DNA of 39,308 nucleotides, from positions 1-39,308 of the IMG/VR virus record IMGVR_UViG_3300044609_000630, one strand, 5' to 3'. Below are positions 3,243-26,074 of this stretch, in pieces (positions within the stretch are counted from its first letter, which is position 1; each line of letters starts with the position of its first letter). The notes under the pieces were generated by a model. It was not told where the DNA came from. It searched no databases and saw nothing but the letters and a program-made list of their open reading frames with translations. A program made the position numbers and the translations under genes. The DNA comes from a virus.

Positions 3243-3877
3243 TGGCTGACGTAACCAAAAACCCAATTCAGCCCCAAGGTAGCGGCTTCGGCCGCTTCAT
3301 GCGTGAGTTCGTAGACCGGGCGTTCCTGAGTAATCGCGGGTACGACTACAGGACCGGCCAATGGGACAGGCGCGGCGTTCGTCAGGGCCTAATCCAAACG
3401 GGCGCGGGCTTACTGATGCCGGGTGCTGGAACGCTTACTGGTGTTGGCATGAGCCTGTATGACCGGTATCGGATGGACAACAACCGCCGCAACGTGCCGA
3501 GCCCGAATCTGAGTAAGCCGATGGGCAACACGTTCACCCCCGGCGTTCGCCCTGCAGGCACAAGCGGGCTTGCCGGCCTGACCGGCTTTGGCGCTGGCGC
3601 TTATGGCGGGGCGACTGCTGCACCTCAATCTGGGCCCATGCCTATCAGCCTCGTCCAGCTCACTCCGCAAGGCAACATGCAGACGACCAATCCGGGCATT
3701 ACGACGCAGGGCATGAATCTCAATGCGTTCAGTGGCCGGGGCGGCCCGATTGGATTCTCTGGCGGCTACACCCCGAGCGGCGCAAGCAGGATCGAGGGGG
3801 AGGCCGCTCAGGACATGTGGCGCGGGATGCAAATGGGCCAGTTCGGCAACCGTCAATTCCACAACTACCAGAACTGA
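3242..3877 (+). CDS. Gly-rich protein, probable virion or lysis-associated component
   Basis: A 211-residue protein with a basic N-terminus containing RGYDYRTGQWDRRGVRQG, an apolar segment (GLIQTGAGLLMPGAGTLTGVGMSLY, about residues 50-72) and a long Gly/Ala/Pro/Gln-rich C-terminus. Low-complexity Gly/Gln composition like that of the ejection proteins at 14.9-19.4 kb suggests a minor virion protein, but no family is recognised. It sits between the lysis genes and the packaging genes. Confidence 0.78.
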   Translation: MADVTKNPIQPQGSGFGRFMREFVDRAFLSNRGYDYRTGQWDRRGVRQGLIQTGAGLLMPGAGTLTGVGMSLYDRYRMDNNRRNVPSPNLSKPMGNTFTPGVRPAGTSGLAGLTGFGAGAYGGATAAPQSGPMPISLVQLTPQGNMQTTNPGITTQGMNLNAFSGRGGPIGFSGGYTPSGASRIEGEAAQDMWRGMQMGQFGNRQFHNYQN

Positions 3878-23988: not shown

Positions 23989-24831
23989 TTATTCGCCTTG
24001 ATCCTGTTTCGGAAGCTTCGTCTTGATAACGTCGCGCTCATGCGTGGAAAAGATGCCGCCCTTGGTCGGGGCCAGCCACAAGTCCATCTGTGCGGCTTGC
24101 GGGATACATGCCCACGTTTCGGCGACGGTGTAAAGCTCGTCAGGGTCTTGCGACAAGTCCCAGCGGCCGATGCATTCCTTGATAAGATCGACCGAAGCGA
24201 AGTATTGCTCATAGGCGTCATCGCATCGCTGCTTTCGTTCGTCTGTAACGGTCAACAGCGGCACTTCGTTTGCGTTCTGCACGACCGTGACATCAACCAT
24301 CCGTTCCGCTTCGTCAGGCTCGACGATTCCAGCGAAACCGAACGCATAGCGGGCCGCCTGAATCGTGGCCTTGTGTCGCAGCATGCGGGCCGGCCATCGC
24401 TTCCACACGTCGGTGTTGCGCACGCATTCGGCCATGTACTCAGTGACGATTACGGGATGCGCTCGGTCCTTGCGGAACATCTTGCAGGTCACGGAAACGA
24501 GGTTGCCCTTGTCGTCCGCCGTATCGACGAACTCCATGCCGTCGAATGCAGGATGGCCGTTAATCAGCTTGAGCCATCCGTCCACACTGACCACGGGGAT
24601 AATCCCGCCGTTCGCCGGAAATGCGAAAATCTCCTTGGTGAACGGGTTTAGGCCGTGTTCTTTTGCCACAAGGCAGAACGCCGCGACCTGCTCGTCGCTA
24701 ACCTGTTTTCCGCCCATGACGGTGCTTTTCATGGTCTGGATAAAAGCCCGCTTATCCATCCCATACGTGCCGGCAAGCGATGCGATGATGCTGCCGCCGG
24801 GGTTGTCGCTGATCTGTGCAATGTTGCTCAC
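23989..24831 (-). CDS. bet: Single-strand annealing recombinase, Bet/RecT family
   Basis: A 280-residue protein that anneals complementary single strands during recombination and replication restart. Family features include GLNPFTKEIFAFPANGGIIPVVSVDGWLKLI (split here only by length), RKDRAHPVIVTEYM and RMLRHKATIQAARYAFGFAG. The start is GTG with GAGAGGG 6 nt upstream. The usual partner exonuclease (lambda Exo, YqaJ or RecE type) is not found nearby. Confidence 0.93.
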   Translation of the reverse strand: MSNIAQISDNPGGSIIASLAGTYGMDKRAFIQTMKSTVMGGKQVSDEQVAAFCLVAKEHGLNPFTKEIFAFPANGGIIPVVSVDGWLKLINGHPAFDGMEFVDTADDKGNLVSVTCKMFRKDRAHPVIVTEYMAECVRNTDVWKRWPARMLRHKATIQAARYAFGFAGIVEPDEAERMVDVTVVQNANEVPLLTVTDERKQRCDDAYEQYFASVDLIKECIGRWDLSQDPDELYTVAETWACIPQAAQMDLWLAPTKGGIFSTHERDVIKTKLPKQDQGE

Positions 24832-24917: not shown

Positions 24918-25109
24918 TCAGTCCCCGCCACCGCCACATGATCCGCTGTCAGAACTCGACGACGAGTCGCTAGAGCATCCGCTGTCGTAACTGGTGTGAT
25001 AGATGGGATTGAGCGGGCTTGTGATGCTCAGCGGGTTGAGCGGGTCGTTATCACGACGGCGGCGTTCCTCTTCTTCACGCTGGCGACGCTTACGCTGTTC
25101 TTCGTTCAT
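24918..25109 (-). CDS. Low-complexity protein (charged N-terminus, Ser/Gly C-terminus)
   Basis: A 63-residue protein. The N-terminus is almost only charged (MNEEQRKRRQREEEERRRRD), followed by NPLNPLSITSPLNPIYH and an SSDSSSSSDSGSCGGGGD tail. Similar small NP-repeat, Ser/Gly-tailed proteins occur in other phages without known function. A TTGGAGGATT site precedes the ATG. Upstream lies folded region 2, which may be its leader. Confidence 0.75.
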   Translation of the reverse strand: MNEEQRKRRQREEEERRRRDNDPLNPLSITSPLNPIYHTSYDSGCSSDSSSSSDSGSCGGGGD

Positions 25110-25138: not shown

Positions 25139-25645
25139 AACAGGGGTCCGGTACTCCCCACGGAATGCATAGCCTGTCTTGCGCGGTGTACCTTCACGGC
25201 TGCGGCCGGGACTCTCCGTCAGAAATCCTGTTGTGAGAGGGTCAGGGCGTCCGCCCTTGGCCCCAGCCGCATGCGTGAAGGTGCTGGTTGAACCTTTGAG
25301 GGGTCGGACTCGGGCCGGTGCTGCATTCGACTTCTTCCGGCTTGCCTCGGGGCCGTACTTCGCCGGCCGCTGATCGGTAAAGCTCCCTCCGGGTTAGGTT
25401 CCCGGTGCTGTAGCCACGCCGCTAAACGTGTGCGCATCAGCCTGCGCATTCCGAATCCGACTTCTCAAAGGTGCCGGTTACGTCTCCGGCGCAGGGCTCT
25501 CACTGCCGTATTGCCTTGGCCTGCTGCAGCAGGGCGCAATTCCCGTCGTTGCTTTTACGTCGAACTGATCACGGGCTTCCCGACGTTGCCCGCCTTTCAC
25601 GGCGGCGGGCTGCCGTTGCACCTTTGCACGGGTGGTATATCTAAA
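25139..25645. ncRNA. Candidate large structured non-coding RNA (region 2, about 510 nt)
   Basis: No credible gene lies between 25110 and 25661. Stems: 25191-25198 with 25274-25281, continuing after a 2x2 loop as 25201-25206 with 25266-25271; inside it 25210-25216 with 25237-25243 and a hairpin at 25244-25257. A 21-bp long-range helix joins 25293-25313 to 25451-25471 with one mismatch, enclosing hairpins at 25389-25405 and 25431-25448. Another lies at 25471-25492, and more follow up to 25640. Four G-U pairs exist only in plus-sense RNA and one only in minus sense, which favours plus; but a promoter (25645-25672) and the flanking genes point leftward, so the sense is left open. No known family recognised. 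Confidence 0.55.
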
Positions 25646-25672
25646 TTCTACGCCTCTACACCTACACTTCAA
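25645..25672 (-). promoter_or_regulatory. Candidate leftward promoter ahead of folded region 2
   Basis: Reading leftward, TTGAAG (25672-25667), 16 bp and TAGAAT (25650-25645). Transcription would start near 25638, run through the whole folded region and reach the gene at 25109, bet and ssb. It overlaps the end of the upstream gene. Confidence 0.5.
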
Positions 25673-25832
25673 CGCCACGGGTGGCACTGTCCGTTTCGAT
25701 GTCGCGATAATCCGGCCTGTTCCCGTCTCGGGTTCTGGCGGACTGCTCGAAGTAGCGGAGGCGGTCAGCTTCGTCGATCATCTGGAAAGCGCGCCAGCCG
25801 GCCGGCGGCTTCACTTCGCGGTATTCGTACAT
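25662..25832 (-). CDS. Small charged protein
   Basis: A 56-residue protein, MYEYREVKPPAGWRAFQMI..., with GGAG 6 nt before the ATG at 25832. It overlaps the upstream gene by 22 nt. It is charged with no membrane segment. Function is unknown. Confidence 0.7.
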   Translation of the reverse strand: MYEYREVKPPAGWRAFQMIDEADRLRYFEQSARTRDGNRPDYRDIETDSATRGVEV

Positions 25833-26074
25833 GTGCGCTCCAGTTCGGCGATGAGTTCGTCTGCCATGTATACGGCGCATCTGGCAGTGTATTCTTGGTC
25901 GGCGTCTTTTCGCCAAGAATCAGACGATACATATGCCTGCATCGCCATCCCCGCGAACCACTCGCGCATGGTCAGGCCGCCTTCGCTGCCGACGTGCGGG
26001 TAATACTGCCCCGCGTCGCGGTCGTAGAACAACTCGGTCTTGGTGACCGGAAACGCCGGATCATTCTTGCTCAT
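25811..26074 (-). CDS. Phage protein (GLTMREWFAGMAMQA family)
   Basis: An 87-residue protein starting MSKNDPAFPVTKTELFYDRD, with the stretch GGLTMREWFAGMAMQAYVSS and a C-terminal helix YMADELIAELER. This pattern is common in phage early regions and prophages, with no assigned biochemical role. It overlaps the Cys-rich gene upstream by 14 nt. Confidence 0.82.
   Translation of the reverse strand: MSKNDPAFPVTKTELFYDRDAGQYYPHVGSEGGLTMREWFAGMAMQAYVSSDSWRKDADQEYTARCAVYMADELIAELERTCTNTAK

Follow-up and report, generated by a model that had tools for sequence, protein, structure and literature searches.

What occupies the gene-free gap ahead of bet in this phage, and in which sense is it read? The stretch of DNA analysed here (the window; 39,308 nt) belongs to a phage with a P22-like portal, and the gap extends from about 25.66 to 25.11 kb, between a minus-strand open reading frame (ORF) at 25811-26074 and a 63-aa minus-strand ORF at 24918-25109, which has GGAGG before its start and a weak match to PHROG 13684. 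A 280-aa Bet/RecT-like single-strand annealing protein is encoded further on (23989-24831, minus strand; PHROG 252, E 1e-66), so that the gap does lie upstream of bet, as had been claimed, although the 63-aa ORF intervenes. We found that the gap is a chain of three structured minus-strand RNA modules, designated B, A and C in order of reading, which lies in the untranslated leader ahead of bet. The initial annotation had suggested that the gap encodes a large structured non-coding RNA and had named covariation in homologous regions as a test; covariation in the homologues found here is strong, so the core of that proposal stands. The region is structured, yet as a series of recurring modules and not as one unique RNA.

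Folding energy is suggestive but does not decide the sense by itself, since the gap beats shuffled sequences on both strands (plus, 100/100 shuffles, z -2.90; minus, 98/100 shuffles, z -2.19). The minus-strand minimum-energy fold includes hairpin P2 of module A. The long-range helix first noticed in the gap is present (arms 25292-25313 with 25451-25472, 22 nt, 86% complementary). Its description as having one mismatch holds on the plus strand if G-U pairs are counted, but not for the minus-strand RNA, in which this helix, stem P1 of module A, has two A-C mismatches next to each other and a single U-G pair. Further hairpins in the gap were confirmed, including a second 21-nt helix (25190-25210 with 25262-25282).

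The sense, previously called unresolved, can be settled as minus. The conserved sequence of the family and its covariance model (R1) match on the minus strand only, and on these grounds, together with the accepted G-U pairs, the RNA was assigned to that strand. The wobble pairs that had seemed to favor the plus strand are few, come from one helix in one sequence and are overruled by the family. The array is read in the direction of the operon itself, and a putative sigma-70-like promoter (TTGAAG-16 nt-TAGAAT, 25645-25672, minus strand, 9/12 consensus positions) lies just upstream of it. One such site was found against 0.3 expected in shuffles. That the gap contains a structured minus-strand RNA of the module A family is, in our judgment, nearly certain.

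Module A spans 25293-25471 (minus strand) and is closed by stem P1 (25471-25452 with 25312-25293). Stem P1 is followed by GAA and the P2 hairpin UGCGCA-GGCUGA-UGCGCA (together 25431-25451), an 89-nt variable arm (25342-25430), the P4 hairpin GCCGG-(AAGAAGUCGAAUGCAGCA)-CCGGC (25314-25341), one C, and the returning strand P1'. Copies with the same order, with the P2 loop GGCUGA and the P4 loop AGAUCAGCA, are carried by more than 100 viral contigs as well as by phages P1, HK620, CUS-3 and RCS47. The enlarged P4 loop of the window copy marks a subtype that is found in other copies as well (e.g. L211 and L244). The scaffold of stem P1, P2, P4 and the paired loops is constant and has a cloverleaf-like four-way plan, and the arm is hypervariable, mostly 26-160 nt in length and differing in sequence between copies.

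Two tests that are unbiased by the search pattern bear on the stems. The free positions of P2 are complementary in all copies (87/87), and the strands of stem P1 pair at 6.8 of 8 positions within their own copy versus 4.3 of 8 when each is matched with a strand from another copy. An alignment of 41 copies, which were picked for having the stems, contains double changes at 17 of 25 pairs and scores 0.456 for covariation, versus 0.133 when shuffled and at most 0.16 when slid. Because the A1 and A2 alignments were selected in the same manner, their pair counts lean towards structure; the 87-copy, swap and loop tests are exempt from this.

The loop test concerned copies whose P2 loop reads GUCGAU, which were parsed by structure only with the P4 loop ignored: P4 contained UCGAC in 7/7 of them and UCAGC in 0/7. 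Copies with the P2 loop GCCGAU have CGGC in P4 in part, and Cronobacter phage ENT47670 carries a compensatory swap of both loops, of the GUCGAU/UCGAC type. Since the complementarity of the two loops covaries, their sequences support a kissing contact between P2 and P4. In the window copy, GCUG of the P2 loop would pair with CAGC of the P4 loop, giving 4 bp (consensus 5-6).

The R1 model was built from 33 sequences and matches 25305-25459 on the minus strand only, at full length (1-107/107) and with 52.5 bits, a score that is not independent because the window copy is among the 33. The window copy was recovered independently by a plain pattern match and stem rules. Matches of R1 in phage HK022 (14.8 bits) and at window positions 3563-3664 were taken as chance.

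The relationship to other phages had to be traced through short motifs. A search of phages with the whole gap as DNA gave one chance-like match of 32 nt, and the gap is not conserved as DNA among the bet relatives compared. A short minus-strand hairpin motif, GCCGG...GTAACCGGCACC, was found again in two bet relatives. The block GAATGCGCAGGCTGATGCGC recurs in viral stretches with compensatory stem changes, and a pattern scan that left its stem positions free returned at least 120 matches. An ORF-based analysis of neighborhoods was discarded, since GC-rich loci yielded false ORFs, and literature searches for the motif strings returned unrelated papers or none.

Module B (25466-25626, minus strand) was recognized by its similarity to two viral loci, L047 and L057 (88% over 50 nt and 85% over 41 nt), and by a recurring core hairpin motif that a pattern scan located in at least 120 viral stretches. 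L047 and L057, which are among these stretches, have more blocks in common with the window, all in minus sense. Within module B, a conserved 5' block precedes ACG and the hairpin GCAG/CUGC (25506-25503 with 25494-25491), after which a second hairpin, GCCGG-AGACGUAA-CCGGC (25490-25473), leads to ACC. A 9-bp stem, CAAAGGUGC/GCACCUUUG (25626-25618 with 25474-25466), closes the module in the window. Its strand CCUUUG also belongs to stem P1 of module A, so the two stems compete. Across copies the closing stem scores 4.5 with its own strand versus 4.2 with swapped strands; it is found in some copies only and is therefore not claimed for module B in general.

Module C (25190-25282, minus strand) is a hairpin, ACCUUCACG-CAU-GCGGCUGG ... 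CCGGCCGC-AGC-CGUGAAGGU, with a 3x3 internal loop CAU/AGC. Elements of this type number 16 in the fetched loci, the window included, versus 1 in shuffled loci, and they show many compensatory changes, e.g. CUUCACG/CGUGAAG here and CUUGACG/CGUCAAG in L047. Elsewhere in L047, a stem of the 15-bp class takes the place of the window's module A, some 430 nt downstream from the core of module B (at 2197); it includes a T-arm hairpin, GCCGG-UUCGAAU-CCGGC, and its 3' flank is homologous to the window. In L006 (2498-2776 and 2831-2855), the module B core lies in a 100-nt gap directly after an HNH endonuclease gene.

Neighboring modules have P1 strands in common, and relatives gain or lose whole cassettes. 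Over more than 500 nt of their arrays, phages P1 and RCS47 differ by nothing but one 196-nt unit, which consists of module A plus a spacer and is itself flanked by the 16-nt repeat TTACCGTTGTGATGAA. This indicates that modules are gained and lost as units. In these phages and related Punaviruses the arrays surround tRNA-Asn and tRNA-Thr, and that of phage P1 (NC_005856, about 68.9-70.2 kb) lies downstream, on the same strand, of the annotated sigma-70, C1-controlled promoter Pban. The annotated minus-strand ORFs plp and upl of phage P1 face tandem structured RNA modules on the other strand (L309, NC_005856, 1973-2542) and may not be genes.

Module A is located between Q/pR' and holin in HK620 and CUS-3, with a terminator downstream of it in HK620; directly upstream of bet in L003, a relative of the present phage; and in E. 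coli phages Bas77-80, where the Bas80 copy lies beside tRNA-Met. Klebsiella phage Madison has module A within a 3.2-kb gene-free stretch, in which module B, tRNA-Met and a match to RF02076 (L291 3835-4049) are also found. A match to abiF RNA (RF03085) lies right behind a module A copy at L232 1269-1305, and in three loci (L166 8636, L186 3536 and L204 7986) module A has boxA/boxB-like nut sites on one side and, on the other, genes whose N-like products are rich in arginine. Where tRNA genes occur within 600 nt, they are on the module's own strand (21/0 for A, 19/0 for B), which supports the assigned sense, and within 300 nt they are enriched (A, 10/110 versus 1%; B, 13/86 versus 0.5%).

The HK620-type module is present in 108 of 5426 complete E. 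coli genomes, the best matches being without annotation. The exact P2 pattern was found in 0/369 sampled species genomes from the class of a Pusillimonas genome (G012) and in 0/395 from the class of Holdemania (G013). These absences are in line with a phage-borne element, and strain-specific prophages can escape such samples.

The initial annotation had also considered two such RNAs in one phage unusual, a view that no longer holds given the module arrays of phages P1, RCS47, CUS-3 and Madison. The window itself has a second structured non-coding stretch on the plus strand (557-746 and 757-895), possibly the region that the earlier reader counted as the first. R1 matches it weakly at 643-746 (18.4 bits, with E 0.026 in one search and 0.004 in another). 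Behind this match lie a tRNA-like but degenerate sequence, which includes a T arm (GTCGGTTCGATTCCGGC), and a hairpin resembling a terminator.

With regard to function, the array would be transcribed together with the operon genes, starting either at the promoter-like site (25672-25645) or further upstream. Most probably it would then work as a small RNA encoded by the phage, the role proposed for STnc100 (RF02076) and PasD. The scaffold would shield the RNA and display the variable arm, and the displayed arm would touch a specific target. We put the chance of this overall reading, a minus-strand module array acting as an STnc100-like phage sRNA scaffold with a variable arm, at about even, and hold its trans-acting component more tentatively. 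A small RNA with a variable arm is favored because a constant scaffold is combined with a hypervariable arm, because of the kinship with STnc100 and PasD, and because the settings are untranslated. The constant part is conserved far better than the arm, and this could equally mean that the scaffold itself is the functional part. Module A also adjoins ribosome-binding sites and terminators, a position that suits a role in cis.

Such a role would be that of a put/nut-like antitermination or leader element, in which nascent modules modify RNA polymerase or protect the untranslated leader against Rho, so that operons with long untranslated stretches are fully transcribed. The untranslated leaders and tRNA arrays in which modules occur agree with this, as do their positions between boxA/boxB-like sites and N-like genes, between Q/pR' and holin in HK620 and upstream of bet here, and HK022 putRNA likewise has two adjacent stem-loops (PMC9378689). 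A boxA-like TGCTCTT(T/A) lies at most 120 nt upstream in 16/110 module A copies versus a background of about 1%, but it accompanies only 1/86 module B copies, and in enteric phages the string often appears to be one strand of a neighboring module's helix. Furthermore, the core motif does not occur in HK022, where the model match is at chance level only, and put has neither the hypervariable arms nor the multi-copy arrays seen here. We consider antitermination unlikely to be the main function.

Mimicry of tRNA would explain the four-way plan and the D-like/T-like loop contact, with P4 placed immediately before P1' in the style of a T arm; the RNA would then be a processing signal, or a decoy for host enzymes or defence nucleases that act on tRNA. 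The homologous hairpin of L047 has a T-arm sequence, the spacer module of phages P1 and RCS47 includes GGGTTCGAATCCC, spacers give weak matches to tmRNA models, and the same-strand tRNA neighborhood is strong. However, the modules have no CCA end and no conserved anticodon arm, stem P1 ranges from 5 to more than 12 bp, and kissing over 4-6 base pairs is unlike tRNA. ARAGORN found no tRNA in the window, and RF00005 likewise gave no match. This reading is improbable.

Two further explanations are both highly improbable. The inverted repeats could be DNA-level cassettes for phage recombination with incidental RNA, as the one-cassette difference between direct repeats in phages P1 and RCS47 and the mosaic order of modules might suggest, but G-U pairs accepted on one strand and a fixed direction relative to tRNAs indicate RNA, and loop-loop covariation is hard to reconcile with duplex DNA. 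An assembled RNA particle of the GOLLD/ROOL kind would fit large, ornate phage RNAs near tRNAs (PMC12286853), but Rfam scans gave no GOLLD or ROOL match, and module number and order vary, unlike a fixed subunit.

Beyond the favored small-RNA reading, it is conceivable, although we think it doubtful, that the modules belong to a phage-wide class of cassette RNAs recognized so far only through members like STnc100. In such RNAs an exchangeable arm would be mounted on a cloverleaf scaffold with kissing loops; they would be arranged in arrays with genuine tRNAs and in early and late operon leaders, and would serve either as decoys resembling tRNA or as a combinatorial platform of sRNAs directed at functions of the host or of rivals.

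The modules are unannotated in the model phages P1, HK620 and CUS-3, where deletion and testing are possible at once, and their overlap with plp and upl on the opposite strand in phage P1 casts doubt on both ORFs. The R1 model allows annotation of module A. The family joins scattered prophage sRNAs (STnc100, PasD), tRNA arrays and leader RNAs, and what untranslated leaders and tRNA islands do in phages can now be tested.

Among known RNAs, module A represents a phage family absent from Rfam, in which the nearest family is STnc100. Rfam searches of the region gave nothing real at the gathering threshold or at E up to 10. RF02076 in particular did not match the window even at E 10, the score for membership being at least 47 bits, so we regard the window element as a sibling family of STnc100 and not as a member. 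By comparison, an element of phage P1 (L309 2579-2702) scores 26.9 bits with R1 (E 1e-5) and 33.4 bits, below threshold, with RF02076, and the RF02076 match in Madison is full. Expression of STnc100, a prophage RNA, has been seen by RNA-seq and on one Northern blot (PMC5331693), and a relationship between the prophage sRNAs PasD and STnc100 has been described (PMC13192938). Consensus structures compared by eye show a common plan, P1-GAAU-P2-arm-P4-C-ACC, which the window copy follows: P1 ending in GGU, GAAU, the P2 hairpin, one or more variable arms, P4, a single C and a P1' starting with ACC. Both RNAs are carried by phages or prophages. Their hairpin sequences differ, as do the loops of P2 and P4 (GGCUGA and AGAUCAGCA in module A; UGUGCG and AGGCA in STnc100). 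Kinship of plan between the two is probable.

HK022 putL and putR resemble the array in having two stem-loops side by side in an early leader, but the array is larger, modular and equipped with variable arms; direct homology was rejected, since HK022 has putL and putR and lacks the module B core motif. GOLLD and ROOL are likewise large, ornate phage RNAs near tRNAs (PMC12286853), but the window has no match to an Rfam covariance model and module arrays are variable. With tRNA, finally, the modules have in common a cloverleaf-like plan, two hairpin loops in contact and, in a relative, a T-arm-like P4, whereas they differ in the missing CCA and anticodon, the longer kissing contact and the variable length of stem P1.
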